Source of the DNA: a virus
DNA: 64,000 bases
Strand: one strand, 5' to 3'
IMG/VR virus record: IMGVR_UViG_3300021961_008712
Coordinates: 1 to 64,000 of that record
In this document: one piece after another, positions 46,105-64,000 of the stretch
How positions within the stretch are numbered: the stretch's first letter is position 1
Layout of the letters: each line of letters opens with the position of its first letter
Made by a program: the position numbers and the translations under genes
Notes under the pieces: generated by a model
The model's input: only the letters and a program-made list of their open reading frames with translations
Told to the model about the DNA's origin: nothing
The model's database searches: none

Positions 46105-48891
46105 ATGAGAATTGATAGCCCAATAATGACCAACGCCGTTGCCACCGGCTCATTTAAAGGATCTTTTAGCGGATCATTTGAAGGAGATATTCAAGCCGAT
46201 TCGGTAGCATATGCAAACGTAACAGGTAAACCAACCTTAGTATCTGGTTCAAGTCAAATTGTATTTACTGAGATTGCCCCTAACGGAATTATTTCCGGTT
46301 CAGCATCTGATGCTAGAACTCAACTAGGTGTTGCAATTGGAACAGATGTACAGGCTTACCACCAAAACCTTAACGATATTTCAGGACTAAATGTTTCTGA
46401 TAGTAATTTTATTGTAGGTAATGGATCTGCTTTTGTAGCTGAATCTGGAGCAACTGCAAGAGCGTCATTAGGTTTAGGAGACTTTGCAACTATCAGCTCA
46501 TTAGCATATGCTGATCTAACTAGCATTCCTAGCGGAATCGTTTCTTCTTCCGCTCAAATAGACGAATTATTTAATGTAGATGGATTAATCTCAGGTTCAT
46601 CTCTATCTTCTGCGGCACAAGGTGAAGTAACTCTTACAACAAACGGAGTTGCTGCAACAGCTACAGATTTAGGTCTTCAAACTTCTGACTCTCCTACCTT
46701 CGCTGGTTTAACAGTTAATGGCGCTATCACAGTAACTGGAAACGTAGACGGCAGAGATGTAGCAGCAGATGGTACTAAATTAGATGGTATTGAAGCAAAT
46801 GCTGATGTAACCGATTCTACCAATGTACAAGCAGCTGGCGCGTTAATGGATTCAGAAGTAACTAATCTAGCTCAAGTTAAAGCATTCAACTCAGCTGATT
46901 ACGCAACCGCAGCTCAAGGTACTACAGCAGATGCAGCACTTCCTAAAGCAGGAGGTACGATGACAGGTAACATTACCTTCTCTGGTGCACAGACAGTAGA
47001 TGGTAGAGATTTATCAGCAGACGGTACAAAGTTAGACGGAATTGAAGCAGGTGCAGATGTAACAGATAATGCAAATGTAACTGCTGCAGGTGCATTAATG
47101 GATTCTGAATTAACTTCTTTATCTGGAGTTAAAACACTTACAGTTCCAGACAACACTACAATCTCTACCTTCGGTAAGAGTTTAGTAGACGATGCCGATG
47201 CAGGTGCTGCTAGAACAACTCTAGGAGTAGATGCAGCAGGAACTGATAACTCAACTGATGTTACTTTAGCTGGTACAAGAGACTATATAACAATAGCAGG
47301 TCAAGTTATCACTAGAAATGTAATTGATATTTCTGACGATACTAACCTTGCAGTTTCAGATACAACTGGACAAACAGGTATTAACTTAACATTATCAGGA
47401 GATACTATCTCAGGTGTAGTAAGCGGTTTAACGACTACATCTAACGTAACATTTGGAAGTTTAACTCTTTCCGGTGACTTAACAGTTAACGGTGATACAG
47501 TATCGTTAAATGCTACTAACCTAAGAGTTGAAGATAAATTAATCTCTTTAAATAGAGGTGGATCAACTGCCGCTTCTTCTGATGGTGGTGGATTTTTCTT
47601 GAGTGGATCTAATCAATCATTCACTTGGGATAATGGAAATACAAGATGGGCGTTATCTAATTCTTTATACGTACCTGGTAGTATTACTGTTACAGGAACA
47701 GTAGACGGCAGAGATGTAGCAGCAGATGGGACTAAATTAGACGGTATCGAAGCAGGTGCAACTGGTGATCAGACAGCAGCTGAAATTAGAACTTTAGTTG
47801 AATCAGCTACTGATTCTAATGTATTTACAGATGCTGACCATTCTAAACTTGACGGTATTGCAGCAAGTGCTAACAACTACACTCACCCATCGTATACTGC
47901 AAGAAGTGTTGACACTACAGGTGCTGAAGTATTAGATACATTTACCTCGGACACTAGCGGTCACGTTACTGCTATTACCAAGCGTACAATGACATTAGCA
48001 GACCTTGGATACTCAGGAGCTACGAACGCAGATAACTACTCATCTTGGACTATTAGAGACGGAGATACTACTACCTATACTATTACATCAGGAGACACAT
48101 TACAAATTGCTGCCGGTACAGGTATTACCTCTAACTTTACAGCAGATGATGTACTTACTATTACTAACACTGCCCCTGATCAAACAGTATCGTTAACAGC
48201 AGGATCTAACGTAACTATTACTGGTACTTATCCTAACTTTACAATCGCATCAACTGATACTAATACAGTTTATACTCACCCATCGTATACTGCAAGAAGT
48301 ATTGACACTGCAGGAGCTGAAGTATTAGATGTATTTACATCAGATACTAGCGGACACGTTACAAGCGTCACTAAACGTACAATGACATTAGCAGACCTTG
48401 GATACTCAGGAGCTACTAATGCGAACTATATTACAAATAACAACCAGTTAACTAACGGTGCTGGTTATACCACATATTCTGCTAACCAGACTCTAGACAA
48501 TACATCAAACGTTCACTTTGAAGGTTTAATGGTGGGTCAAACAACAGGAGCAACTGCTAACACTATTCGATGTGTTGGAGATATCGTAGCATACTATTCT
48601 TCTGATGCACAATTTAAAGACAATGTAACTCAATTAGAAGGAGCTCTTGATAAGGTTAAGCAAATTAGAGGTGTAAGCTTCGATTGGAATGATAAGCAAG
48701 ATGTATACGAAGGACATGATATCGGAGTTATCGCCCAAGAAGTAGAAGCAGTATACCCAGAATTAGTACATTACAGAGAGCATAATGACTCTAAAGCAGT
48801 AGATTACGTTAAACTAACTGCTGTATTAATCGAAGCTGTAAAAGAATTATCGGCTAAGGTTGATGCTTTAGAGAGCAAATGCAACTGTTAA
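46105..48891 (+). CDS. Large tail fibre protein with S74 chaperone-type C-terminus
   Basis: 928 residues. The shaft contains three copies of VDGRDVAADGTKLDGIEA-like units, IPSGIVSSSAQIDELFNVDG, and a duplicated 51-residue block beginning YTHPSYTARSVDTTGAEVLD. The C-terminus is an S74-type chaperone: SSDAQFKDNV, EGHDIGVIAQEVEAVYPELV and a coiled coil ending VDALESKCNC. The conserved Arg of the SD-x-R-L-K motif is Gln here, while Ser and Lys are kept, so self-cleavage may still occur. It is a host-recognition fibre and the last gene of the fibre mosaic. Confidence 0.88.
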   Translation: MRIDSPIMTNAVATGSFKGSFSGSFEGDIQADSVAYANVTGKPTLVSGSSQIVFTEIAPNGIISGSASDARTQLGVAIGTDVQAYHQNLNDISGLNVSDSNFIVGNGSAFVAESGATARASLGLGDFATISSLAYADLTSIPSGIVSSSAQIDELFNVDGLISGSSLSSAAQGEVTLTTNGVAATATDLGLQTSDSPTFAGLTVNGAITVTGNVDGRDVAADGTKLDGIEANADVTDSTNVQAAGALMDSEVTNLAQVKAFNSADYATAAQGTTADAALPKAGGTMTGNITFSGAQTVDGRDLSADGTKLDGIEAGADVTDNANVTAAGALMDSELTSLSGVKTLTVPDNTTISTFGKSLVDDADAGAARTTLGVDAAGTDNSTDVTLAGTRDYITIAGQVITRNVIDISDDTNLAVSDTTGQTGINLTLSGDTISGVVSGLTTTSNVTFGSLTLSGDLTVNGDTVSLNATNLRVEDKLISLNRGGSTAASSDGGGFFLSGSNQSFTWDNGNTRWALSNSLYVPGSITVTGTVDGRDVAADGTKLDGIEAGATGDQTAAEIRTLVESATDSNVFTDADHSKLDGIAASANNYTHPSYTARSVDTTGAEVLDTFTSDTSGHVTAITKRTMTLADLGYSGATNADNYSSWTIRDGDTTTYTITSGDTLQIAAGTGITSNFTADDVLTITNTAPDQTVSLTAGSNVTITGTYPNFTIASTDTNTVYTHPSYTARSIDTAGAEVLDVFTSDTSGHVTSVTKRTMTLADLGYSGATNANYITNNNQLTNGAGYTTYSANQTLDNTSNVHFEGLMVGQTTGATANTIRCVGDIVAYYSSDAQFKDNVTQLEGALDKVKQIRGVSFDWNDKQDVYEGHDIGVIAQEVEAVYPELVHYREHNDSKAVDYVKLTAVLIEAVKELSAKVDALESKCNC
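47878..48030 (+). repeat. Internal 153-nt repeat, copy 1
   Basis: Encodes the 51-residue block starting YTHPSYTARSVDTTGAEVLD in the 46105 fibre. It is nearly identical to 48271-48423, with scattered, mostly synonymous changes. Confidence 0.85.
48271..48423 (+). repeat. Internal 153-nt repeat, copy 2
   Basis: Second copy of the block at 47878-48030, starting YTHPSYTARSIDTAGAEVLD. The copies are 240 nt apart, so recombination between them would delete or duplicate shaft sequence in frame. Confidence 0.85.
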
Positions 48892-50817: not shown

Positions 50818-51608
50818 GCATAGTTGATAAGAATTTTGTTTACGATAAGATTACGAATAATCAAGTTTATAAAAAAGCACCAAGTGGTGAGATTATTATT
50901 GACTATGAAAGAGTTAAGTATGCATGGGCACATGGAGCAACACGTTACCACTTAGGAGATGGTCTATTAGTATACTCTATCATTCAATTTATGAGAGCAA
51001 AGAACTGTGTATGTTTAGGCTCTGGAGGAGGCTTTATTCCTCGTATTATGACACAGGCAAGACTAGATCTATATGATCAAGAAATATTTGAAGGTAATTC
51101 AGATTTTAATTGGGGAGATATCGGTGCAACTTTTATCGTAGATGCAGCAAACGGAGTAGGAGGAAACGTAGACTGGCTAGAAGAAGATTCATTTTTCAGA
51201 AACATATTTCATCCTAGAGTTATAAACGATACAACTGAAAATGCATTTTATAATTTTTTCGTAAAAGAGGATATTAAAATTGATTATCTTCATATTGACG
51301 CAGGACATTCGTTTGAGGATGTTAAAAGAGATTTTGAGCTATATAAAAACATATTATCTGATTACGGAGTAATATCAATACACGATACAGATAGGTCTTA
51401 TGAAAAATCCTATATAGTTTCTAAAGATATTAAAGATCAAAATCACCATGATGAATTTGCTTCTGGTCCTGCTGACTTAGTTGACTTACTTAAGAATGAT
51501 CCGAACTTTGAAGTTTTTAACTTTTTCAATAACGGAGCATTAAAAACTAAACCTTCTTCAACAGGATTCACACTAGTTAAGAAATCATTTCCTAACGTAT
51601 CGTTATAA
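50814..51608 (+). CDS. SAM-dependent methyltransferase
   Basis: 264 residues. The Rossmann-type start CVCLGSGGGFIPRIMTQARL supplies the SAM-binding glycine loop near residue 64. Further on are IDYLHIDAGHSFEDVKRDFE and YGVISIHDTDRSYE, the D-x-G-H and H-D motifs of the Methyltransf_24 group that often methylates sugars. It is coupled at both ends to glycosyltransferases, so the likely substrate is a nucleotide-sugar or a glycan chain. Specificity is unknown. Confidence 0.75.
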   Translation: MSIVDKNFVYDKITNNQVYKKAPSGEIIIDYERVKYAWAHGATRYHLGDGLLVYSIIQFMRAKNCVCLGSGGGFIPRIMTQARLDLYDQEIFEGNSDFNWGDIGATFIVDAANGVGGNVDWLEEDSFFRNIFHPRVINDTTENAFYNFFVKEDIKIDYLHIDAGHSFEDVKRDFELYKNILSDYGVISIHDTDRSYEKSYIVSKDIKDQNHHDEFASGPADLVDLLKNDPNFEVFNFFNNGALKTKPSSTGFTLVKKSFPNVSL

Positions 51609-52453
51609 TGTTAAATTTAGTTACAGTAGTAGGGAAAAATACTCATATGCTACCGCATATGCTTAACCACTATAAAAATATAGTAGCACCTGAAAACATA
51701 CACGTAGCAGTATATAGACACTCAGACGATGACGGCATCCTAGAGGAAATAGAAGAACTAGGTATTATTCCATTTAGAGTTTATACACACGAAAAATACA
51801 ACTGGGAGAAAGTAACAGACATCTACAATGAAATCAAATCTACCAAGCCAAATGAATGGTGGATAGTATCTGATGATGATGAACTACAAGTATATCCTTA
51901 CGCAGTAGAAGACATAATAGAAGCATGTGAGAGAAACGGTTATGACTTTGTCACAGGTGGGTTCATAGATAGAATAGGTATAGATGGTACTTTTCCTTTT
52001 GTGGACAGAGACACAAATATACACAAAACTTTTCCTTTGGCTTCTTTCTTTAGATATCATATGTCTGGAGCATGTCCTAACAAATGTACCTTAATGAAAG
52101 GTTATCAAAAAGTAACACCAGGACAACACTATGCCCTATTCTCCGATGGTTCAAATAGCTGGGGTAAAAGCCATCCTAGAAGGATGCCGGTGGATGAAGT
52201 ATTTACCCAAGTTCATCATTTTAAATGGGATAAGAGCTGTGTAGATAGAATACAGGAGGTAGCAGAGATTAAAAAAGATTATGCATTTTCAAAAGAGTAT
52301 AACAAAATGTATAGAGCTATTGCTAGAAATGACTGGAAAATAGATATCAATAATTCTTTATACTTAGTTGCTGAACTGAAAGAAAGTTCGTATATTGAGT
52401 ATATGGACTATCCATACTGGGATGAGCTTAGAAATTTAATTATAACTATATGA
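51608..52453 (+). CDS. Glycosyltransferase (GT2/GT92-like)
   Basis: 281 residues. The start MLNLVTVVGKNTHMLPHMLN is a nucleotide-binding strand and helix. WWIVSDDDELQVYP holds the acidic D-D-D-E metal site near residues 88-93. FTQVHHFKWDKSC near residue 200 is the typical later His motif of GT2-4/GT92 proteins. It transfers a sugar from a nucleotide donor; the acceptor is unknown. It overlaps its neighbours by 1 and 4 nt. Confidence 0.75.
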   Translation: MLNLVTVVGKNTHMLPHMLNHYKNIVAPENIHVAVYRHSDDDGILEEIEELGIIPFRVYTHEKYNWEKVTDIYNEIKSTKPNEWWIVSDDDELQVYPYAVEDIIEACERNGYDFVTGGFIDRIGIDGTFPFVDRDTNIHKTFPLASFFRYHMSGACPNKCTLMKGYQKVTPGQHYALFSDGSNSWGKSHPRRMPVDEVFTQVHHFKWDKSCVDRIQEVAEIKKDYAFSKEYNKMYRAIARNDWKIDINNSLYLVAELKESSYIEYMDYPYWDELRNLIITI

Positions 52454-52651: not shown

Positions 52652-54049
52652 ATGCTAAAGAAACTTGGAGTTATTGTACCGTATAGAAATAGGTATGAGC
52701 ATCTCTTAAAGTTTAAAATGGCTATTCAAGCTAAACTCTATGAAGCTAAAATTCCTTACGAATTAATTGTTGTAGAGCAAGATGATAGCGCTAACTTTAA
52801 TAGAGGTAAGCTACTTAATGTCGGTTTTATTGAAGCAGAAAAGCTAGGGTGTGATTACGTTTGTTTTCATGACGTAGATATGATACCTCAAAAAGTAGAC
52901 TATTCATACTGCGATCATCCTATACACTTAGCTACACAAGATATTCCATTTGATGAATACTTTGGAGGTATTACTATGTTTCCCCTAGATGATTTCAAAA
53001 AAATAAATGGTTTTTCAAATAAATACTGGGGATGGGGTTTTGAAGACGATGACTTGCTTTGGAGATGTAAGATAAAAGGCGTTATGTTAAACTCAATCAA
53101 AGTAACTGATGCTGGTACTAGTGGTGCTGCTTTAAAGTTTAACGGAAACTCTTCTTATGTTAAGCTTCCTAATACCATTCGGACTAGAGGAGATTTTAGT
53201 ATACTTGTGTCGATGGAACCAACAGACATTACTCTTGATCCAAATGCGAGAGAAGATAAGTATGTAGCTTTTGGTATTCCCGGGTTTGACTTTAACATTA
53301 TGTACACCAGCTTTCGTAGATTTGCTGTAGAATTTTTTGATGCAAGAAAACAACACCAGTTTGCATTCTCTAATATTATACCATTAGTTAAAGCTAATTT
53401 ATTTATTACCTATAGTAAAGATAGAAACGAACTTAACTTTTTCCATAATACCAATCTGATAAAAAAAGTAGAGTTAGAAAAACCTCTTTATTTATATATG
53501 AAAGAGGAACATATGTACTTAGGATGCTCAGACCCAAAAAGAAAAGAAGAAAATAACTGGTTTAGAGGAGTTATTAATCAGTTTGCTGCTTGGGATAAAG
53601 AATTAACTTTTGATGAAATTCAAGATATCACAGATAATAATTACTTTGGATTAGCAGATAACTTTAAAAACTATCAATCTGCAGGCAATTTGACTTCTTA
53701 TTATGATGCTAAATTTATTAAGAAATACAAACTAATAGACATGTCCGATACTGCTATAGACGGAGAAATTGTAGACTGTGAATTAGTAGCGTACGACTTA
53801 CCAAAAATGAAAAGAATGTCTATTCCTTATAGAAGAGATAGTAAATATAGAACTCTAAACCACGAACACGAAGGATTCTTAAATACAGGATGGAAAGATA
53901 TTACAACAAGATACAACCAATTAAAGTTTATGAACGAAGTTATGAGAGGGTATGGTATGCCAGAGGAAGATGGTCTTACTACCTGTAAGTACAGGCTATT
54001 ATCTCATTCTAAAGTCGGAAACTTAACACAATTAATAGCACACTTATGA
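52652..54049 (+). CDS. GT7 beta-1,4-galactosyltransferase-like enzyme with inserted LamG domain
   Basis: 465 residues. Residues 1-145 have the GT7 core: VPYRNRYEHL, FNRGKLLNVGF (49-59), FHDVDMIP with the D-x-D (72-79), YFGGITMF, INGFSNKYWGWGFEDDDLLW (118-137). These match animal B4GALT motifs almost word for word. Residues about 155-335 are a LamG/concanavalin-like sandwich (ALKFNGNSSYVKLPNTIRTR, ending GVINQFAAWDKELTFDEI). The last 75 residues (KYRTLNHEHEGFLNTGWKDI, then a TTCKYRLLSH tail) resemble the GT7 C-terminal segment. So the lectin-like domain interrupts the enzyme. The next gene has the same layout. Confidence 0.8.
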   Translation: MLKKLGVIVPYRNRYEHLLKFKMAIQAKLYEAKIPYELIVVEQDDSANFNRGKLLNVGFIEAEKLGCDYVCFHDVDMIPQKVDYSYCDHPIHLATQDIPFDEYFGGITMFPLDDFKKINGFSNKYWGWGFEDDDLLWRCKIKGVMLNSIKVTDAGTSGAALKFNGNSSYVKLPNTIRTRGDFSILVSMEPTDITLDPNAREDKYVAFGIPGFDFNIMYTSFRRFAVEFFDARKQHQFAFSNIIPLVKANLFITYSKDRNELNFFHNTNLIKKVELEKPLYLYMKEEHMYLGCSDPKRKEENNWFRGVINQFAAWDKELTFDEIQDITDNNYFGLADNFKNYQSAGNLTSYYDAKFIKKYKLIDMSDTAIDGEIVDCELVAYDLPKMKRMSIPYRRDSKYRTLNHEHEGFLNTGWKDITTRYNQLKFMNEVMRGYGMPEEDGLTTCKYRLLSHSKVGNLTQLIAHL

Positions 54050-55461
54050 AATTAGGAGTATGTGTTCCGTACAGAAATAGAGAAGCTCACTTAAATGAGT
54101 TTGTACCGAAAGTAGGGAAGTACTTAAAAAGTCAAGGTATAGACTTTTGTATGTATTTTGCTCATCAGGTAGATGATAAACTTTTTAATAGAGGAGCTAC
54201 CAAAAATATTGCTGCTAAACATGCATTTCAAGACGGATGTGATTATATAGTATGGCATGATATAGATATGATACCTGAAGAAAATGGAGGAGCAGATTAT
54301 AGTTTTCCCACAGAAGGCCCTAGACATATTGCTACTCAGATTTCTCAAATGGATTACCAGCTTAAGTATCATGAATACTTTGGAGGAGCAGTTTTATTCA
54401 GCAAAGAACAAGTACTAGCTACTAATGGGTATTCAAATGACTACTGGGATTGGGGAATGGAAGATGATGATTTATTTTGGAGATGTCAGTTAGAAGGGCT
54501 TACAAATCAGACTTATATAGACAAAAAAATTGAAGGTCAGTATTTTAAAAGATTTGATGGAGATAAATCATTTATAAAAGTTCCATTTCAGAGAGAGATG
54601 AGATCCTTAAATTCTAGATCTCATACACTTTCTGTACTACTCCGTGCTAGGCAACAACCAGAAAAAAATCCTATATTTCTTATTGGAAGTAATAAAAGAA
54701 AGTATGTAGAATATCCTGTTGTTAGAGTGAAAGGGTACGACTACGGAATTGGATTTAACAACTCAAGAACAGTTTCTCTAACCTATTGGAATACATTCCA
54801 TCAACATAACTACATGTGGGTTAAAAGGTACGATGAGCAATGGACTTGGGTAACAGCTGTATTCGATAGTTTTGAAAGAAAATCTCACTTCTACCTGAAC
54901 GGCTCAGAGGTTGATTCTAGAGGAGGTTATGGTACGCATTCACCATTATCGTTTACTGGAAGACTTAAAAATTACGGTACAGAAGATTGGTACATAGGAA
55001 CCTCACCTTCAGAACCAGATGATAGTACAGTTAAGTACTTTAAAGGAGATATTGCAAAAGTATATGCCTGGAAGCGTCCTCTTTCTACAAAAGAAGTGGC
55101 AAATTTACATAATGAACTACCTACTGATGATTTAGTTATTGATCTAGATTTTAACAATCCTAAATCAGAATTTTTTGAATACGGTACAGAAGATAGAAAA
55201 GAAGATATATTAGTACCTAATTCTATTTTACCACATAGAATAGAAGGAAAGTTTAGATGTTTACCTCATCCTGATGAAGGTATAGTAAATGGAAAATTTG
55301 TCAAAGGTGAAACAACTGCTAGAAACGAACAAAGATATGTTCTTCAAATGCAGCAAGAAAAAATAAATTATAAAGAAGACGGTATAAAGCAAGTTCAATA
55401 TGAATTAGTTAGCGAAGAGCTGCTTACTCCTTGGGCTAAAATGATTAATATTAAATTATGA
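54046..55461 (+). CDS. Second GT7 galactosyltransferase-like enzyme with inserted LamG domain
   Basis: 471 residues, paralogue of the previous gene. GT7 core: VPYRNREAHL (8-17), FNRGATKNIAAKHAF, WHDIDMIPEENGG (70-82), EYFGGAVLFSKEQVLATNGY and WDWGMEDDDLFWRCQ (134-148). The insert, about residues 160-350, is LamG-like (KRFDGDKSFIKVPFQRE, HFYLNGSEVDSRGG, YFKGDIAKVYAWKRPLSTKE). The tail KFRCLPHPDEGIVNGKFVKG ends the enzyme. The two genes have diverged strongly, so they probably add sugars to different acceptors. Overlap ATGA with both neighbours. Confidence 0.8.
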   Translation: MKLGVCVPYRNREAHLNEFVPKVGKYLKSQGIDFCMYFAHQVDDKLFNRGATKNIAAKHAFQDGCDYIVWHDIDMIPEENGGADYSFPTEGPRHIATQISQMDYQLKYHEYFGGAVLFSKEQVLATNGYSNDYWDWGMEDDDLFWRCQLEGLTNQTYIDKKIEGQYFKRFDGDKSFIKVPFQREMRSLNSRSHTLSVLLRARQQPEKNPIFLIGSNKRKYVEYPVVRVKGYDYGIGFNNSRTVSLTYWNTFHQHNYMWVKRYDEQWTWVTAVFDSFERKSHFYLNGSEVDSRGGYGTHSPLSFTGRLKNYGTEDWYIGTSPSEPDDSTVKYFKGDIAKVYAWKRPLSTKEVANLHNELPTDDLVIDLDFNNPKSEFFEYGTEDRKEDILVPNSILPHRIEGKFRCLPHPDEGIVNGKFVKGETTARNEQRYVLQMQQEKINYKEDGIKQVQYELVSEELLTPWAKMINIKL

Positions 55462-56837
55462 CATCTCAAGAAGTAAAAGATAAATTAGATAAGGTAGGTT
55501 GTGGATTCTGTTTAGCAAAATGGACTCAAGTAACTATGCACCTTTCTATGGGAATGACTCATTCTTGTCACCACCCTTCTCCTCACAAAATAGGGTTAAA
55601 CGAGATTAAAAGAAATCCTACTGCGCTTCATAATACAAAGTTTAAAAAACTTAAAAGAAAAGAAATGCTTGAGGGAAAAAAACCTCAAGAGTGTAACTAT
55701 TGCTGGAATGTTGAAGATAATTCTAATTCATTTTCTGATAGAGTATTTAAATCATCAGAACCTTGGTCAATTAAGAGTTACGATGATATAGTAAATTCAC
55801 ATTGGAGAGATGATTTTAATCCTAGGTACGTAGAGGTTGCTTTCTCTAATACTTGTAATTTCAAATGCGCTTACTGTGGTCCTCAATTCTCATCTAAGTG
55901 GGTAGATGAAATAGAAAAACACGGTCCGTATCCCACTTCCACTAATTTTAACGGCATCGAACACCTCAAGGCAAAAAATGAAATGCCTTATAAGCACTCA
56001 GAAGATAATCCTTATCTAGATGCATTTTGGGAATGGTGGCCAAGTTTGTATCGTGATTTGCATACTTTTAGAATTACAGGTGGAGAGCCTCTACTTGCCA
56101 AGGACACTTTTAAAGTTCTAGATTATATTATAGAACAAGAAGAACCTAACACAGAATTAGCATTATCTATAAACTCTAATTTAGGAATACCAGATAACTT
56201 ACTTGATAAATTTATTGCTAAAGCTAAGATATTGTGTGAACAAGATAAGGTGAAAGAGTTAGTAGTCTTTACATCTGTAGAAGCTAAAGGTAAGCAGGCT
56301 GAATATACAAGATTCGGTTTGGAGTATGATAAATTTTGGCAAAACGTAGATAAGATATTAACGGAGCTACCTAAAGTAACGGTTAATATTATGGCTACCT
56401 TTAATGCACTGTCTGTCTTCACATATAGCGATTTAGTCGATAAGGTATTTGAAATGAAGAAAAAACACCACAATGGTAAACGTTATTCCATTTCTGCTGT
56501 ACAATTAGATACTTCGTACTTACGTTGGCCTAATCACCTTTCTGTTCGTATATTAGATGAAGAGCATAAAGAGTATATACTCCAAGCTGCTAAAAAAGCA
56601 CTATACTATGGACAGAGAGAATTTTCTCATAACACATACGGATTTACAAACGTAGAGATACAGAAAATTAAAAGAATATACGACTATGCTAAAGGTCATA
56701 GCGTTACATACGATAAACAAAAAAATATAGATGACTTTATTATATTTGTAGACGAATTAGATAAACGAAGAGGTACAAATTTCTTAGAGACATTCCCTGA
56801 ACTAAAAGAGTTTTATGCTAGAAATAAAAGAGGGTAA
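55458..56837 (+). CDS. Radical SAM enzyme with N-terminal Cys cluster (first copy)
   Basis: 459 residues. The radical SAM motif is SNTCNFKCAYCGP, with C133, C137 and C140 as CxxxCxxC. Upstream lie further cysteines, C18 (FCLAKW), C37 (SCHHP), C79 and C82 (ECNYCW), all conserved in the paralogue at 58137 and thus candidate ligands for an auxiliary iron-sulfur cluster. TGGEPLLAKDT is the GGE SAM-binding motif. I know such proteins as twitch-type radical SAM enzymes in marine phages. The substrate is unknown, possibly a sugar or peptide made by the neighbouring enzymes. Confidence 0.85.
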   Translation: MTSQEVKDKLDKVGCGFCLAKWTQVTMHLSMGMTHSCHHPSPHKIGLNEIKRNPTALHNTKFKKLKRKEMLEGKKPQECNYCWNVEDNSNSFSDRVFKSSEPWSIKSYDDIVNSHWRDDFNPRYVEVAFSNTCNFKCAYCGPQFSSKWVDEIEKHGPYPTSTNFNGIEHLKAKNEMPYKHSEDNPYLDAFWEWWPSLYRDLHTFRITGGEPLLAKDTFKVLDYIIEQEEPNTELALSINSNLGIPDNLLDKFIAKAKILCEQDKVKELVVFTSVEAKGKQAEYTRFGLEYDKFWQNVDKILTELPKVTVNIMATFNALSVFTYSDLVDKVFEMKKKHHNGKRYSISAVQLDTSYLRWPNHLSVRILDEEHKEYILQAAKKALYYGQREFSHNTYGFTNVEIQKIKRIYDYAKGHSVTYDKQKNIDDFIIFVDELDKRRGTNFLETFPELKEFYARNKRG

Positions 56838-57402
56838 GCCATGGGTCTTTTGGCCAAGCCATATATGCGATACCTTTCCAGAAAAACCTGCAAATAAGGT
56901 TATGACTGGAGATCAGGAATTTGAAGTATATGTAGATTTAAAGTTAAATAAGACTGAGAAAGTAATTGGAACCTTATTTACTCTGCTTCCACATTATACA
57001 GCTATGGATATATATGAAGGCCGTTTACTCTTTACTATGATGAATCAAGATAGAGAAACAACCTATTGGGATTTACCCCAACCTATATATGATGATTTAA
57101 GATTAAGAATATTGTGGAAACATGTCCCAAATAAAACTTTCACAGTATTTATTAATAGTAGACAAGTTCATGAAGTAGACTTAACTGAGAAAGCATTTGC
57201 CACAGAAGACGATCCTCACATAATCTTCGGCGCAGGAAACTTTCCTAAAAATGGCTACAACTTGAACTACACTGATATAGAGTTATACGAATTTAAGGTT
57301 ATGCAAAATAATCAATTACTTTGCCACCATACTTTTGAAGACTTTATATTTGACAAATCAGTAGATATTACTGATAATTGTAATTTTATGAATAAACTGT
57401 AA
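56815..57402 (+). CDS. LamG/concanavalin-like lectin-type protein
   Basis: 195 residues, beta-rich without a catalytic motif. The pattern TFTVFINSRQVHEVDLTEKA, then PHIIFGAGNFPKNGY and DIELYEFKVM, matches the terminal strands of the LamG inserts in the GT7 genes. It looks like a free-standing version of the insert. It starts inside the previous gene (23-nt overlap) and abuts the SGNH gene. It may bind the glycan that the cluster builds. Confidence 0.65.
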   Translation: MLEIKEGKPWVFWPSHICDTFPEKPANKVMTGDQEFEVYVDLKLNKTEKVIGTLFTLLPHYTAMDIYEGRLLFTMMNQDRETTYWDLPQPIYDDLRLRILWKHVPNKTFTVFINSRQVHEVDLTEKAFATEDDPHIIFGAGNFPKNGYNLNYTDIELYEFKVMQNNQLLCHHTFEDFIFDKSVDITDNCNFMNKL

Positions 57403-58155
57403 ATGAAAAAGTTAATAGTCTGTGGTGATTCGTATATGGCTGCTACGCAGGATCTTCCTGATAGAGCAGATTGCCTAGGTGAAGGACATTTTACTCAAAT
57501 ACTTGCTAAAGAATTAAACTTAGAGTACGACACTTTTGCTAGAGGCGGGTCATCTAACTTTCTTATTTACCTTCAAGTAAAAGAAGCAATTAAACTAAAA
57601 CCAGACCTCATTATGGTAGGGTTTACAGACAGTAATAGAGTAGAGATTTTAAACGCAGAATACTACAATAAGGATTTAGATGGTAATAGTATTGATGTTT
57701 ATCAATTTAACTATCATGAGTACCCTGATTTATCTACTGCATTAAGAAAAGAAAAGTGGAATAATAAACCAAGGTATATTTCTACATCTGTAATTAACGT
57801 AATAGATTTCCCAGAAAATTTTGAAGACAAAGGCAGGCTTTTTAGTGATAATAATTTGAAAATATATAAGGATTATTTTACTTCATTCTGGAGCCCTTCT
57901 ATTCAATCTTTATATAGTAATATATTGATGAATCATACTATAGATTTATTAAATAAGTCTAAGATAGAGTATTATATACTAGGACTAGGAGACCCTACGG
58001 ATGATCGTAGAGATAAAAGGGGAAGTAAAAATCTTAACCCACAAAATCAACCTGGCGGAGGACCCTACAGATGGCATACCACTGCAGAAACTCAAAACAT
58101 ATTAGCAAAAAATTGGATTAACTATTTTAAAGACTTATGGCAGATAAACAACTAG
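57403..58155 (+). CDS. SGNH/GDSL-type hydrolase
   Basis: 250 residues. Block I is VCGDSYMA with the nucleophile Ser10, block II is ARGGSSNFLIYLQV with the oxyanion Gly/Asn, and near the end GGGPYRWHTTAETQN provides a candidate catalytic His. These enzymes remove or move acyl groups on sugars. In a glycan cluster it may act as an O-acetyl esterase or transferase. It is coupled to the lectin-like gene and overlaps the second radical SAM gene by 19 nt. Confidence 0.75.
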   Translation: MKKLIVCGDSYMAATQDLPDRADCLGEGHFTQILAKELNLEYDTFARGGSSNFLIYLQVKEAIKLKPDLIMVGFTDSNRVEILNAEYYNKDLDGNSIDVYQFNYHEYPDLSTALRKEKWNNKPRYISTSVINVIDFPENFEDKGRLFSDNNLKIYKDYFTSFWSPSIQSLYSNILMNHTIDLLNKSKIEYYILGLGDPTDDRRDKRGSKNLNPQNQPGGGPYRWHTTAETQNILAKNWINYFKDLWQINN

Positions 58156-59657
58156 TAGAGTGGAGAGATAAACACCTCAATTCGGTAAGTAAAAGCTTTT
58201 GTGCTGCTAAGTGGTATAATGCTTCTTTACACCTAGGCCATGGATTTACTAATTCATGTCATTTACCTCTACCCCACCCTATTGATCTAGAGGAGATTAA
58301 AACTAATCCTTCAGCATTACATAATACTATGTTTAAGAAGAAGATTAGAAAAATGATGCTTGAAGGTACAAGACCTGCTGAATGCTCGTATTGCTGGAAA
58401 GTAGAAGATATAGGTGCAAATTCGATAGGTGATAGGGTATTTAAAAGCCGTATATACTCTGATGAAGATATAGCTAAGTTAGCTGAACTTCCTTGGGATG
58501 CAGATGTAAATCTTAAAACAGTAGAAGTTTCTTTTGATAGAACATGTAACTTTGCTTGCTCATACTGTAATACTGGATACTCTACTACATGGGCTAAAGA
58601 CATAGAAGAGAACGGACCTTATCAAAAATTTAAGACTACATCTGCAGGAGCTTATCATAGTGATGGTTCTTGGGCAGACGTATTTGGTAAAAATAATAAA
58701 GATAATCCATATGTAGATGCATTTATAGAATGGTGGCCAGAACTTGCACCTGAACTACAAGAGTTAAGAGTTACTGGAGGAGAGCCATCTGCATCATTTA
58801 ATTTTTGGAAGTTCTTAGAGAAAATGCAAGAAGTACCTGCACCTAATCTAAGATTAGCTGTTAACTCTAATTTAGGAGTAAATGATAAATTAATTAATAA
58901 GTTAATTGATATGTCTAATACTCTCCCTATTAAAGAGTTTGATCTATATACTTCCTGTGAGGCATTTGGTATTCAAGCAGAATATATTAGACATGGATTA
59001 GTTTGGGACGTATGGAGAAATAACTTAGTACGAATGATTGAAGAAGGAAACTTTAGACAAATTATTTGTATGATGACTATTAATTCTCTATGTCTTTACT
59101 CTATTACTGAATTCATGGATGATATGTTTACCCTTAAAGAGAAGTACGGCATGAATAAACCAGGTATAGATTTAAATATTCTTAGATGGCCTGCTTTTAT
59201 GTCACCACTAAACCTACCAGACTCAGAGAAGAAAAAACTTCATAAGAAATTAGCTGATTGGTATGAGATTAAAAAAGAGCACCCTCTTATGATGGATCAT
59301 GAAAAAGCTCAAATAGAAAGATTAATAGACTATATTGAAGTAGTAGATCAAGGACACGTAACAACAGAAGATGATAAAGAAAAACACTTCCATGATTTTA
59401 AGTCTTTTTACGAACAGCATGATGCAAGAAGAGGTTCTGATTTTAGAAAAGCATTCCCGGACCCAGATTTACTAGAGTGGTATGACTCCATTGAAGTAGA
59501 CCAGTCTATACCAGATGTACCGGTTAATGATGGACGAATTACCCATTTTGAATCAGGTGAATACGAACCAGATAAAAATAAACCAAAAGAGCTACCTCCT
59601 GCTATAAAAGAAAGAAACGAAAAACAAAGTAAAGTAAAATGGCAAAAGCTCCTGTAA
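58137..59657 (+). CDS. Radical SAM enzyme with N-terminal Cys cluster (second copy)
   Basis: 506 residues, paralogue of the 55458 protein. Radical SAM motif FDRTCNFACSYCN (C137, C141, C144); preceding conserved cysteines C22 (SFCAAKW), C41 (NSCHLP), C83 and C86 (AECSYCW). RVTGGEPSASFNFW is the GGE motif. The C-terminus is 50 residues longer than in the first copy and ends in a Pro/Lys-rich tail (PDKNKPKELPPAIKERNEK). Two divergent copies in one operon suggest two related modification steps. Confidence 0.85.
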   Translation: MADKQLVEWRDKHLNSVSKSFCAAKWYNASLHLGHGFTNSCHLPLPHPIDLEEIKTNPSALHNTMFKKKIRKMMLEGTRPAECSYCWKVEDIGANSIGDRVFKSRIYSDEDIAKLAELPWDADVNLKTVEVSFDRTCNFACSYCNTGYSTTWAKDIEENGPYQKFKTTSAGAYHSDGSWADVFGKNNKDNPYVDAFIEWWPELAPELQELRVTGGEPSASFNFWKFLEKMQEVPAPNLRLAVNSNLGVNDKLINKLIDMSNTLPIKEFDLYTSCEAFGIQAEYIRHGLVWDVWRNNLVRMIEEGNFRQIICMMTINSLCLYSITEFMDDMFTLKEKYGMNKPGIDLNILRWPAFMSPLNLPDSEKKKLHKKLADWYEIKKEHPLMMDHEKAQIERLIDYIEVVDQGHVTTEDDKEKHFHDFKSFYEQHDARRGSDFRKAFPDPDLLEWYDSIEVDQSIPDVPVNDGRITHFESGEYEPDKNKPKELPPAIKERNEKQSKVKWQKLL

Positions 59658-60676
59658 ATTATAACTATATAAGAATACCAGAGCCCTGGGGTGGAGGACA
59701 TACCCCATGGGATACGGGGTTGGGTAATAGATTGTTACACTGGGATGTTGTATATGCTATTAATAAAAGTAATAACTATAAATTTTTTCTAGAGGTAGAA
59801 GCAAGATATTGGCGTGAATTAGAGTTTATAGAACTACCTGGTACTCGTCCGTTGAACATTAATACAGGTACAAATGAGGAGCTTCAAAAACTACTTCACA
59901 AATATGACTTTAATATAAAAAGTCAAAAAATAACCCCACTAAGTCCTCTAGGTGATGATATTTTAGATCAATTTAGTGTTGATGAAGAATATAAACTGGA
60001 ACCAAAAAACTACTATACTTGTTTTGATTGGAAATTTCTTCAACTAACTGAAAAAATAGCAATAGATAACACAGGTTTAAGTAGAATTGCTATTAAAAAT
60101 AAAATACTTTTTAATACAATTAGAAGTATGGGAGTAAATTGTGTAGGAATACATTTACGTAGAGGCGCAGGAGTATTTAAAACACCAGCGCAACTACTAG
60201 AGCTTCCTAAAACAGTACAGAATAATCCATTTTTACAAACACTTCATCCTACTACTATATATAAGTACTGGAATAATAACGTATATGAATCGTTAATAAG
60301 GGAAATCAGGCAAATAGAACCTAATCAAAAATTTTATATAAGCTGTGATTTACAAGTTGGAGAGTATGAATTTTTAAAAGAAAAATTTGGGGATAATATT
60401 AAAACCCGACAAGATGTAATTAGAGATTTACCCGATTCAATTATACAGGGAATAGACTTTACAGATGTAAAAGATGAAAGAAGAATTGCATTAGAGAGTG
60501 TAGTAGATATGATGGTACTTTCATACTGTGATTTTATTGTTGGAGCACAGCACTCAACCTGGCTAGATTCTATTCAAAGAATAAGACAAGTGCCCCACGG
60601 TTTTATCAATCAGTCGAGAGATATACTTTTGAGACATTATAATAAGGCAAAAATAAATTCAAGAGGAGTATTATGA
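59639..60676 (+). CDS. Fucosyltransferase-like GT-B enzyme
   Basis: 345 residues. VNCVGIHLRRGAG near residues 164-176 is the HxRRG-type donor-binding motif of GT11/GT23/O-fucosyltransferase families. VVDMMVLSYCDFIVGAQHST near the end resembles the motif that precedes the conserved Ser in these enzymes. The N-terminus GGGHTPWDTGLGNRLLHWDV is the Gly-Asn-rich first loop. Probably transfers fucose or a similar deoxy-sugar. It overlaps the radical SAM gene by 19 nt and the aminotransferase gene by 4 nt. Confidence 0.68.
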   Translation: MAKAPVNYNYIRIPEPWGGGHTPWDTGLGNRLLHWDVVYAINKSNNYKFFLEVEARYWRELEFIELPGTRPLNINTGTNEELQKLLHKYDFNIKSQKITPLSPLGDDILDQFSVDEEYKLEPKNYYTCFDWKFLQLTEKIAIDNTGLSRIAIKNKILFNTIRSMGVNCVGIHLRRGAGVFKTPAQLLELPKTVQNNPFLQTLHPTTIYKYWNNNVYESLIREIRQIEPNQKFYISCDLQVGEYEFLKEKFGDNIKTRQDVIRDLPDSIIQGIDFTDVKDERRIALESVVDMMVLSYCDFIVGAQHSTWLDSIQRIRQVPHGFINQSRDILLRHYNKAKINSRGVL

Positions 60677-61275
60677 GTTTTGGAATAGTAGAAAGTTTCG
60701 AAAATAAAGTCGCTGAATTCTTTGGTGCTACTTATGGAGTTGCCGTAGACTGCTGTACTCATGGATTAGAACTTTGTTTAAGGCATACAAAAGCAGATAG
60801 AATACTAGTACCAACACATACATATCTTTCGGTACCTATGTTATCTAATAAGTTAGGTATAGGTAGAATGTGGAAAGAAGAACGGTGGAAAAACTACTAT
60901 AATATAACACATAGAATAATCGATGCAGCAGTCTTATGGGAAGAAGGTTCTTACGTAAAGGGTTCTCTTATGGTTCTAAGCTTTCAATTTAAAAAACATC
61001 TCAGCTTAGGTAGAGGAGGAATGATTTTAACAGACAGTGTAGAAGACTGGTTAGCTTTAAAAGCGATGTCCTACGATGGTCGCTCACCAGAAGACATACC
61101 GTGGGCAGACCAAGAGATAGAGACAATAGGGTACCACTATTACATGACCCCTGAAACTGCATACTCAGGTTTGCAAAAAATGAATAACCCAGAATTTATA
61201 CAAAGAAAGCCCAAAGAATGGAGCTGGGAGGATTATCCAAACATAATGAAGCTAAAAGTATTTAAAGATGGTTAA
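60673..61275 (+). CDS. Compact DegT/DnrJ/StrS-family sugar aminotransferase
   Basis: 200 residues, only about half the usual 360-400. Family motifs remain: FENKVAEFFGATYGVAVDCC, ILVPTHTYLSVPML, THRIIDAAVLWEEGS with the pyridine-ring Asp, and LSFQFKKHLSLGRGGMILTD with the PLP-binding Lys. The C-terminal small domain is cut to about 60 residues. No frameshift is visible and the next gene follows in coupled order, so it seems a true short form. It would make an amino sugar or act as a PLP-binding relative. It overlaps the amidinotransferase gene by 8 nt. Confidence 0.75.
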   Translation: MSFGIVESFENKVAEFFGATYGVAVDCCTHGLELCLRHTKADRILVPTHTYLSVPMLSNKLGIGRMWKEERWKNYYNITHRIIDAAVLWEEGSYVKGSLMVLSFQFKKHLSLGRGGMILTDSVEDWLALKAMSYDGRSPEDIPWADQEIETIGYHYYMTPETAYSGLQKMNNPEFIQRKPKEWSWEDYPNIMKLKVFKDG

Positions 61276-62278
61276 TGTACATAATGAATATAGCAAATTA
61301 AAAGAGGTAATAGTTGGTACTATAGATAATGCTAACATGCCTAAACATGGATTTGATCTTCATGCTATTAATTACGCAGACAAAGATACAATTCCTAGTA
61401 ATGAACTTGGCTTTTTTGATCAAAAAGTGTATGAAGAAACAGCTGAAGACTTAGAAAATCTCGTTAGTATATTGAAAGACTGTGGAGTAGTTGTACATAG
61501 ACCTTCAACTTTAGACACAACAAAAACCGTTTCTAACGGACACTGGACCACAGACCAGTACTATACGTTCTGCCCAAGAGATACTATGACAGTTATAGGA
61601 AATACCATTGTGGAAGCACCTATGACGTTAAGGTCTAGACAATTTGAAACAGATGCTTATAGAGAAATTTTTCACCACTACATGGTAGGTGGGGCAAAGT
61701 GGGTATGTGCACCTAAACCTAGACTCTTAGATAACTGTTACCAAAGAGATGATCTATCTAAACTAACATTAACTAACACAGAACCCGTATTTGATGCTGC
61801 AAATATTTTAAGACATAATAGAGATATTTTGTACCTAGAATCTAATACAGGTAATTTTGCAGGATATTTATGGTTAAAGAATCTACTTGGTGATGAGTAT
61901 AATGTACACTTTTTACAAAACATGTATTCTTACTCTCACATAGATTCAACTATTGCTATTCTTAGAGATGGGTTAGTTTTAGTAAATCCATCTAGAGTAA
62001 ATGAAAAAAACCTCCCTGCATTATTTAAAAACTGGGATGTGATATACTCACCAGAAATGGTAGATATAGGATACCACAAAGTAGAAAGAGCTTCTGTATG
62101 GGTCGGTATTAATTTACTCTCAGTAGATGAAAATACTGTTATAGTAGATAATAGACAAACAGAACTAATAAAGGTGTTAAAAAAATATAAAATAGAAGCA
62201 TTAGATGCAAAAATAAGACACTCTAGAACATTAGGGGGTTCTTTTCACTGCGTTACTTGCGATACAATAAGAGAATGA
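61268..62278 (+). CDS. Glycine amidinotransferase (AGAT/StrB-like)
   Basis: 336 residues. Motifs follow the AGAT family closely: CPRD (102-105), EPVFDAANILRHNRDILYLE with D176, SHIDSTIAILRDGLVLVNPS with H224 and GGSFHCVTCDTIRE with the catalytic Cys (C328). This is the Asp-His-Cys triad that moves an amidino group from arginine onto an amine. In streptomycin-type pathways the homologue StrB acts on amino sugars made by StrS/StsC-like aminotransferases. The upstream DegT gene overlaps it by 8 nt, so a guanidino-sugar product is the natural prediction. It is shorter than vertebrate AGAT, which has an added N-terminal region. Confidence 0.88.
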   Translation: MVNVHNEYSKLKEVIVGTIDNANMPKHGFDLHAINYADKDTIPSNELGFFDQKVYEETAEDLENLVSILKDCGVVVHRPSTLDTTKTVSNGHWTTDQYYTFCPRDTMTVIGNTIVEAPMTLRSRQFETDAYREIFHHYMVGGAKWVCAPKPRLLDNCYQRDDLSKLTLTNTEPVFDAANILRHNRDILYLESNTGNFAGYLWLKNLLGDEYNVHFLQNMYSYSHIDSTIAILRDGLVLVNPSRVNEKNLPALFKNWDVIYSPEMVDIGYHKVERASVWVGINLLSVDENTVIVDNRQTELIKVLKKYKIEALDAKIRHSRTLGGSFHCVTCDTIRE

Positions 62279-62279
62279 T

Positions 62280-63149
62280 ATGAAGTTTGTTTTAATAGGA
62301 GGAGCAGGTTATATTGGAAGCCAATTAACTGTTGCATTAGATACAAGAGGGCACGAAGTTACAGTTATAGATAATTTTACCTATAATCAGTCTCCTTTCA
62401 TGCCACCAAAGGTAAAAGTAATAAACGATACAGTTGAGAATATAAGAACACATCAAGCAGATATTGCCTCTGCTGATTATGTATTCTTTATGGCATCACC
62501 TAGGTTAAATGAAATTAATGATTTACCTCAACCTTTACCTTTTGTAGATGCTTTAAACGATACAGTAGATTGCTTAGGAGAAAAAACAGAATTAATATTC
62601 TTTAGTAGCTGTTCTGTGTACGGATACAATGCACAGATAGTTGATGAGACATCTCCTACTAAAATTACCTCTCTATATTCCAAACTGAAAGTTGACTCAG
62701 AAAACAATTTAATATATAAAGGAGATAATAGACTTAAAATAATTAGACTATCTACTCTGTACGGACTTTCTAGTGTTTCTAGAAATGACCTACTCATTAA
62801 TAACTTTATCAGAGATATAACATTTAGTAAATTTTTAGAAGTATACGATCCATTAGCTTGGAGACCTAATATATTTTTAGAGGACTTAATAAATATTTTA
62901 ATAGATCTGTCGGAACATAAACGATTTAGGCCTATATTGAATATTGGCTTTAATGAGTTAAATACTACTAAGCAAGATTTAATACTAACATTAGTCTCTA
63001 AAAATAAATTTGATTTTAGTGTAAAATATTACGCCCCACAAGATAGTAGAAGCTATAAAGTTAAATTTGATTTATTAAAAACTCTATTAACTTTTAGTAC
63101 ATATACCTCTTATGAAGATGGTATAAATAAAATACGTGAACAATTATGA
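62280..63149 (+). CDS. NAD-dependent nucleotide-sugar epimerase/dehydratase (SDR)
   Basis: 289 residues. The N-terminal NAD-binding loop is GGAGYIGSQ (7-15), with IDNFTYN as the acidic end of strand 2. FFSSCSVYGYNAQIVDETSP holds the catalytic Ser, and SLYSKLKVDSEN the Tyr-x-x-x-Lys. This is the extended SDR (GalE/RmlB) layout at a slightly short length. It makes or modifies nucleotide-sugars. The next SDR gene starts inside its stop codon. Two epimerases suggest an activated sugar with several inverted or dehydrated centres. Confidence 0.82.
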   Translation: MKFVLIGGAGYIGSQLTVALDTRGHEVTVIDNFTYNQSPFMPPKVKVINDTVENIRTHQADIASADYVFFMASPRLNEINDLPQPLPFVDALNDTVDCLGEKTELIFFSSCSVYGYNAQIVDETSPTKITSLYSKLKVDSENNLIYKGDNRLKIIRLSTLYGLSSVSRNDLLINNFIRDITFSKFLEVYDPLAWRPNIFLEDLINILIDLSEHKRFRPILNIGFNELNTTKQDLILTLVSKNKFDFSVKYYAPQDSRSYKVKFDLLKTLLTFSTYTSYEDGINKIREQL

Positions 63150-64000
63150 AAGGAACAGTTTTAATAACAGGGGTAGCAGGACTTCTAGGAAGTAGATTAG
63201 CTGACCACCTAATAGAAAAATACCCAGACCTTAAAGTCGTAGGTATTGATAATCTATCAGGTGGTTTTATGGAGAATGTAAACAGTAAAGTAAACTTTCA
63301 TAATATAGATTTAGCGGAAGATAATATTAACGGTGTTTTCTCTTGGCATAAACCAGAATATGTTTTTCATTTTGCAGCATACGCAGCAGAAGGACTTTCT
63401 CCTTTTATTAGAACATACAATTACAAGAATAATACAATAGCTACTGCTAAAGTAATAAATGCATGTATTAGAACAGGAGTAAAACGTTTAGTATTTACTT
63501 CTTCTATGGCTGTTTATGGACACGGATGGGAAGGTAAAAGACCTTTTGAGGAAGGTGATATACCTAAACCTATTGATCCTTACGGTATTGCAAAATATGC
63601 TTGTGAAATGGATATACAAGTAGCAGGTGAACAGCACGGATTAGACTGGTGTATAATTAGACCTCATAACGTATATGGAGTTAAACAGAACATTTGGGAT
63701 AAATATAGAAATGTATTAGGTATATGGATGTACCAGTACTTAAATGACCAGCCAATGACGATTTTTGGTGATGGTCAACAAACTAGAGCATTTAGCTATA
63801 TTGACGATTGTTTAGAACCACTAGAAAGAGCTGCAATCAAACCAGAGGCGTCTAAACAGATTATCAATCTTGGAGGTACTAAATTTACTTCAATTAATGA
63901 AGCTAATGCTATTTTAAGAGATGTAATTAAAAACGGTACCGTAGAGTATAGAGAAGGTAGACATGAAGTTAAAGATGCATATCCTACATGGGCTAAGTCT
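63146..64000 (+). CDS. NAD-dependent epimerase (GalE/WbpP-like), partial
   Basis: 285 residues to the window edge; the frame is open at 64000, so the C-terminus is missing. The loop GVAGLLGSRLADHL binds NAD, then VVGIDNLSGG. FTSSMAVYGHGWEGKRP and PYGIAKYACE supply the Ser and the Tyr-x-x-x-Lys. IIRPHNVYGVKQNIWDKY and DGQQTRAFSYIDDCLEP are the usual substrate-domain motifs. It resembles UDP-hexose or UDP-N-acetylhexosamine 4-epimerases. It overlaps the upstream SDR gene by 4 nt (ATGA). Confidence 0.85.
   Translation, partial: MKGTVLITGVAGLLGSRLADHLIEKYPDLKVVGIDNLSGGFMENVNSKVNFHNIDLAEDNINGVFSWHKPEYVFHFAAYAAEGLSPFIRTYNYKNNTIATAKVINACIRTGVKRLVFTSSMAVYGHGWEGKRPFEEGDIPKPIDPYGIAKYACEMDIQVAGEQHGLDWCIIRPHNVYGVKQNIWDKYRNVLGIWMYQYLNDQPMTIFGDGQQTRAFSYIDDCLEPLERAAIKPEASKQIINLGGTKFTSINEANAILRDVIKNGTVEYREGRHEVKDAYPTWAKS

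Follow-up and report, generated by a model that had tools for sequence, protein, structure and literature searches.

The conversion of a ketone into a guanidino group through an amine is known from streptomycin biosynthesis, in which a DegT-type aminotransferase is paired with StrB1, an inosamine-phosphate amidinotransferase. The substrate of StrB is a ring amine, and to our knowledge no guanidino-sugar has been described in any glycan outside the streptomycin-type antibiotics. The GDP-perosamine pathway of bacterial O-antigens employs GDP-mannose 4,6-dehydratase (GMD), perosamine synthase and an N-formyl- or N-acetyltransferase. Among viruses, Mimivirus encodes a DegT aminotransferase and an acetyltransferase for its virion fibrils (PMC10117803). 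The Campylobacter phages CP220 and CPt10 carry a radical SAM/amidinotransferase module that was reported in 2010 as interchangeable and without known function (PMC2853527). No relevant publication on perosamine or guanidino glycans of phages came up in literature searches.

Here we describe two overlapping phage genes that we read, with a probability of about 0.6, as the core of a cassette making a guanidino-sugar for a glycan of the virion or the host; the GDP-sugar would carry first a 4-amino and then a 4-guanidino group. They lie in a window of 64,000 nucleotides, the whole stretch of DNA analysed, which is the first 64 kb of the 169,750-bp IMG/VR record of a marine virus of bacteria. With a major head protein that shares 67% identity with the counterpart in Flavobacterium phage immuto, this virus is likely a T4-like phage of Flavobacteriales-type hosts; the probable host phylum is Bacteroidota.

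The pair is part of an island of sugar and glycosyltransferase genes of about 26 kb, bordered upstream by a tail-fibre gene (46105-48891) and downstream by the tail sheath and tube genes (L002:16811 and 18591; 76810 and 78590 on the scale of the window). On the + strand, this island encodes a GT2-like glycosyltransferase (51608..52453; weak Pfam match) and two GT7 galactosyltransferase-like proteins recognised by Pfam, one with a possible LamG domain (52652..54049; GT7N/7C, Laminin_G_3 below cut-off) and one with a LamG domain (54046..55461). LamG domains are lectin-like, and the two enzymes carrying them at 52652-55461 are perhaps glycan-anchored; a possible free-standing LamG-like gene follows at 56815-57402. 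Two twitch-domain radical SAM proteins (55458..56837 and 58137..59657, both +) score 344.5 and 312.9 bits against NF033640 (cut-off 170). Further downstream, beyond the window, a B12-binding radical SAM protein resembling KedN5-family C-methyltransferases (L002:9042-10934, or 69041-70933 on the window scale; 207 bits, below cut-off) is unusual for a phage glycan island.

The preliminary description had placed a DegT/StrS-type aminotransferase ORF in overlap with an amidinotransferase ORF, preceded by a fucosyltransferase-like gene and followed by two epimerases, and this gene arrangement holds. The first ORF of the pair (60673..61275, +) encodes a 200-residue DegT/StrS-family PLP protein, a proposed sugar aminotransferase that matches DegT_DnrJ_EryC1 (PF01041; 57.7 bits, cut-off 19.8); the second (61268..62278, +) encodes a 336-residue StrB-like L-arginine amidinotransferase (E 2.6e-92 to StrB1, 1bwd). 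After the pair come a short-chain dehydrogenase/reductase (SDR) of the sugar epimerase/reductase kind (62280..63149, +; PF01370, 2e-16; active-site motif SSCSVYG) and a GalE-like SDR (63146..64000, +; PF01370, 3e-46; 165 bits to GalE 4zrm; motif SSMAVYG) that extends beyond the window and has 338 residues in L002; both motifs are of epimerase rather than dehydratase type. The gene before the pair (59639..60676, +) encodes a predicted glycosyltransferase with an HLRRG motif; it belongs to no Pfam family and has a weak POFUT2 profile match (E 0.017). In a Foldseek search with its AlphaFold (AF2) model (pLDDT 79.8), all 50 best PDB matches were GDP-fucose transferases (FUT8, NodZ, POFUT1, FUT1), at a low TM-score of about 0.4. 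A GDP-sugar as donor would agree with this predicted fold.

The two ORFs of the pair share eight nucleotides, ATGGTTAA (61268..61275, +), as read directly from the sequence. The identical overlap occurs in 9 of the 11 closest loci compared, the window included, and the remaining two have one gene inserted. Among viral loci whose amidinotransferase is at least 68% identical, a compact DegT gene lies within 3.4 kb in all 30, and 17 of the other 50 loci have one in the flank examined. Pairing also reaches distant viruses: the two genes are adjacent in L166, and in the cultured Synechococcus phage S-SCSM2R (host WH7803) a single cluster holds the pair along with a radical SAM gene and several glycosyltransferases. 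A small protein of 164-172 residues (cluster 24) is found repeatedly close to the amidinotransferase in clades far apart, often as its immediate neighbour (L004, L017, L021, L022, L059, L075, L083, L007, L005 and L006); it is annotated as a 2OG-Fe(II) oxygenase in S-SCSM2R and might provide a further modification step.

In 33 of the 80 viral amidinotransferase loci no compact DegT was found within the flank examined, and the amidinotransferase therefore also works elsewhere, possibly on other amines. Could the enzyme of the window likewise act on an amine that is not part of a sugar (a peptide amine, a polyamine or the side chain of lysine or ornithine), with the radical SAM genes perhaps involved as well, while the compact DegT serves a separate, adjoining sugar pathway? 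Besides the 33 loci, this reading draws on the finding that radical SAM is the commonest Pfam family near more distant homologues (10 of 100 proteins), and on the Campylobacter phage amidinotransferase, whose surroundings hold five radical SAM genes but no DegT (PMC2853527). We nevertheless consider it unlikely, given the conserved overlap and the constant presence of DegT in the clade of the window, the signature residues, which follow StrB, a ring-amine enzyme, and the slot that the amidinotransferase occupies, which in other loci is taken by sugar formyl- and acyltransferases.

This slot became apparent when 71 non-redundant loci with a compact DegT were compared. In 58 of them an SDR follows the compact DegT within two genes, and among the 60 non-redundant loci having a downstream SDR, the first one is of GMD type, with the motif SSSEMFG, in 45. 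Three of these GMD-type SDRs were examined and score about 375-382 bits against the GDP-mannose 4,6-dehydratase model, whose cut-off is 415; one was compared with solved GMDs and gave 315 bits. Beside the compact DegT we recognised five classes of candidate amine modifier, namely hexapeptide acyltransferase, GNAT, formyltransferase, SAM methyltransferase and amidinotransferase. Exactly one class is present in 60 loci, two in 1 and none in 10; random assignment gave a mean of 14.8 loci with two or more classes and a minimum of 7 in 10,000 runs, against the single locus observed. Formyl- and amidinotransferases require an amine, whereas methyl- and hexapeptide transferases could target oxygen instead of nitrogen. 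The presence of formyltransferases and of GMD suggests a 4-amino-6-deoxy sugar on an NDP carrier, probably GDP.

On a quick tree of DegT the modifier label changes 26 times overall, with only two changes for the amidinotransferase label, so that few independent events underlie the exclusivity of this class, which may partly reflect shared descent. The compact DegT of hundreds of related viruses usually stands beside an enzyme other than the amidinotransferase that could cap an amine. A broader proposal, which we hold tentatively and at somewhat less than even odds, is that a minimal PLP sugar aminotransferase (about 197 residues, among the smallest of its fold) is the fixed core of a modular phage cassette. 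In this cassette the adjacent cap gene would be swapped (acyl, formyl, methyl or amidino), related phages would show one amino sugar in forms of different charge, and the amidino branch would lead to a guanidino-sugar glycan. One compact-DegT phage locus (L041:7348-9173) also has split phosphonopyruvate decarboxylase genes and a 2-aminoethylphosphonate transaminase, which suggest phosphonate decoration of a phage-encoded glycan.

The DegT protein itself is about half the usual aminotransferase length, a point that the preliminary description had overlooked. In the profile alignment its 167 aligned residues cover positions 36-264 of the 384 of full-length DegT, where about 50 internal residues are skipped, and nothing corresponds to the C-terminal domain. 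As the full two-domain fold (~370-400 residues) of DegT/StrS aminotransferases is lacking, we regard the protein as a compact derivative and not as an ordinary DegT member; because every solved relative has the C-terminal domain, its aminotransferase activity is only putative. The catalytic core is conserved. Lys108 (Schiff base), Asp84 (PLP ring nitrogen), Tyr51 and Gly113/115/116 are invariant in 51 of 51 family members, and the PLP lysine and aspartate are also kept, wherever aligned, in more distant compact DegTs paired with amidinotransferases. The AF2 model has a pLDDT of 91.9, and its top fold matches are GDP-perosamine synthase (the best), ArnB and AHBA synthase.

The missing internal segment and C-terminal domain, along with the full-length DegT genes found in some of the same islands, could also mean that the compact protein acts as a PLP-dependent dehydratase, serves as a regulatory subunit or partners a full-length DegT, and that the amine is supplied by another enzyme. 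This seems quite improbable to us. A ColD-type dehydratase has histidine where an aminotransferase has the Schiff-base lysine, which counts against a dehydratase, and both PLP-binding residues are invariant in the family. Moreover, most loci, the window included, are without a full-length DegT nearby, and the neighbouring formyl- and acyltransferases need an amine.

Members of the compact family are about 197 residues long, nearly all of those in 80 IMG/VR loci falling between 195 and 240, and relatives occur in at least 599 IMG/VR loci. The compact form was found in none of 493 bacterial genomes sampled, all of them from Pseudomonadota (299) or Cyanobacteriota (194). DegT matches in these genomes were ordinary full-length proteins at about 40 bits or less, compared with about 300-350 bits for close viral members. 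PHROGs detects the compact DegT at 28.8 bits, and a BFVD structure search did not return the compact form. The compact DegT is thus a previously unrecognised phage-borne family that existing libraries barely detect.

For the amidinotransferase, the best solved relative is StrB1, with 313 bits over 334 residues, compared with 203 for HsvA and 191-199 for SxtG and human AGAT. The catalytic and arginine-binding residues of the pentein fold (D105, R124, D176, H224, D226 and C328) are all found in it and do not vary among its viral and bacterial homologues. Signature residues are of StrB type, with FDAAN instead of FDAAD, a VDIG loop and HSRTLGG, and the loop before FDAA is short as in StrB. By score, indels and signature residues, StrB-like rather than glycine-type is the best-supported assignment for this predicted enzyme.

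Viral genes of this kind are frequently annotated as glycine-type amidinotransferases, which would make guanidinoacetate as in creatine-type metabolism; the Campylobacter phage homologues are annotated as glycine amidinotransferase, and an ocean survey has proposed viral creatine metabolism on the basis of the methyltransferase GAMT (PMC11360552). For the enzyme of the window this is very improbable, and we rejected it as a first choice by score, residues and tree. AGAT scores more than 100 bits below StrB1, the AGAT residues (FDAAD, FGG) and the long AGAT insertion are missing, and in a quick tree the bacterial AGAT-like sequences form a separate clade with the enzyme of the window outside it. 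Furthermore, general annotation of the neighbourhood brought up no gene recognised as GAMT-like.

In the same tree, viral amidinotransferases fall into large groups apart from the Streptomyces StrB-type, marine Halieaceae and AGAT-like sequences, which argues against recent host capture of the amidinotransferase; the Campylobacter phage CP220 homologue is a very long branch of unsure placement. Bacterial relatives reach at most about 47% identity (Streptomyces homologues about 45%). With these separate viral groups and the lack of the compact DegT in the Pseudomonadota and Cyanobacteriota genomes sampled, recent host capture of the pair was rejected. Some phages carry amidino bases. DNA hypermodification, with amidino groups as in archaeosine, was dropped, as the neighbours of the pair are glycosyltransferases and PMC6884629 names an amidinotransferase in its reference list only.

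The guanidino-sugar pathway put forward in the preliminary description is therefore retained as the best-supported reading, on the StrB-like residues and on the place of DegT in amino-sugar cassettes with interchangeable modifiers. Gene families, catalytic residues, linkage and the near-exclusive slot were computed; to these we add an inferred chemistry, namely which substrate is used, in what order the steps run, that GDP is the carrier and which glycan receives the sugar. An NDP-4-keto-6-deoxy sugar, host- or phage-made and most likely GDP-linked, would be the starting compound. The compact DegT, with PLP and an amino-acid donor, would aminate it to a perosamine-like GDP-4-amino sugar, onto whose amine the StrB-like enzyme would move the amidino group of arginine. 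The neighbouring SDRs would then adjust the sugar, and the enzyme with the fucosyltransferase fold would transfer it to a glycan on the virion or host surface. The guanidino group would give this glycan a positive charge, which according to the preliminary description may alter receptor access or immunity. A virion glycan may be the target, as argued by gene position between the tail-fibre gene and the sheath and tube genes.

Neither a 4,6-dehydratase (GMD included) nor a sugar-1-phosphate nucleotidyltransferase was found in the contig of the window, and the keto sugar would therefore come from the host, a missing part of the genome or another route. A dehydratase is encoded on related contigs of the L110/L111 and L115 type, and the one set against solved structures resembles GDP-heptose 4,6-dehydratase (7us5, 362 bits). 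The related amidinotransferase contigs L255 and L256 have dehydratase-type SDRs that the contig of the window lacks, that of L255 resembling GDP-heptose 4,6-dehydratase. Radical SAM dehydrogenases oxidise sugars in aminocyclitol pathways, and by analogy we suggest that the twitch-domain radical SAM proteins adjoining the pair could oxidise a sugar.

If the guanidino-sugar reading is right, phages would tune the charge of surface glycans through the exchange of a single gene, and a viral enzyme family that is abundant yet hardly visible to present libraries would be identified. Viral amidinotransferases would not need to imply creatine metabolism, and the Campylobacter phage radical SAM/amidinotransferase modules, unexplained since 2010, would gain a testable meaning. 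A half-size PLP sugar aminotransferase would also interest enzymologists.

How does this cassette compare with the known systems? StrB1 and the phage enzyme have catalytic residues, loop lengths and HSRTLGG in common, and the streptomycin pathway uses the same enzyme pair; there, however, it belongs to an antibiotic cluster, while the phage aminotransferase is half-length and stands in an NDP-sugar and glycosyltransferase context. Of the streptomycin analogy drawn in the preliminary description, only the logic of transamination followed by amidination carries over, since the sugar context resembles GDP-perosamine and not a cyclitol. HsvA and SxtG share the fold and catalytic residues, but are more than 100 bits weaker than StrB1 and have different loops. 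As in the GDP-perosamine pathway, relatives of the compact DegT adjoin GMD and an acyl- or formyltransferase, and perosamine synthase is the best fold match; the differences are the length (~197 against ~370 residues), amidino instead of formyl or acetyl, and a contig without GMD. The Mimivirus viosamine pathway (PMC10117803) resembles the proposed cassette as a virus-encoded 4-amino-sugar route with N-capping, there for a virion glycan, but it is a full pathway in a eukaryotic giant virus, with a UDP-sugar and an acetyl cap. In CP220 (L089, 70690-78497), an amidinotransferase is again clustered with several radical SAM and glycosyltransferase-like genes; identity is only 25-30% and the stretch examined has no DegT. 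This module may be a distant functional cousin of the cassette described here. Of the known systems, streptidine-type chemistry, the N-capping of perosamine in O-antigens and the Mimivirus viosamine pathway come nearest to the proposed cassette.
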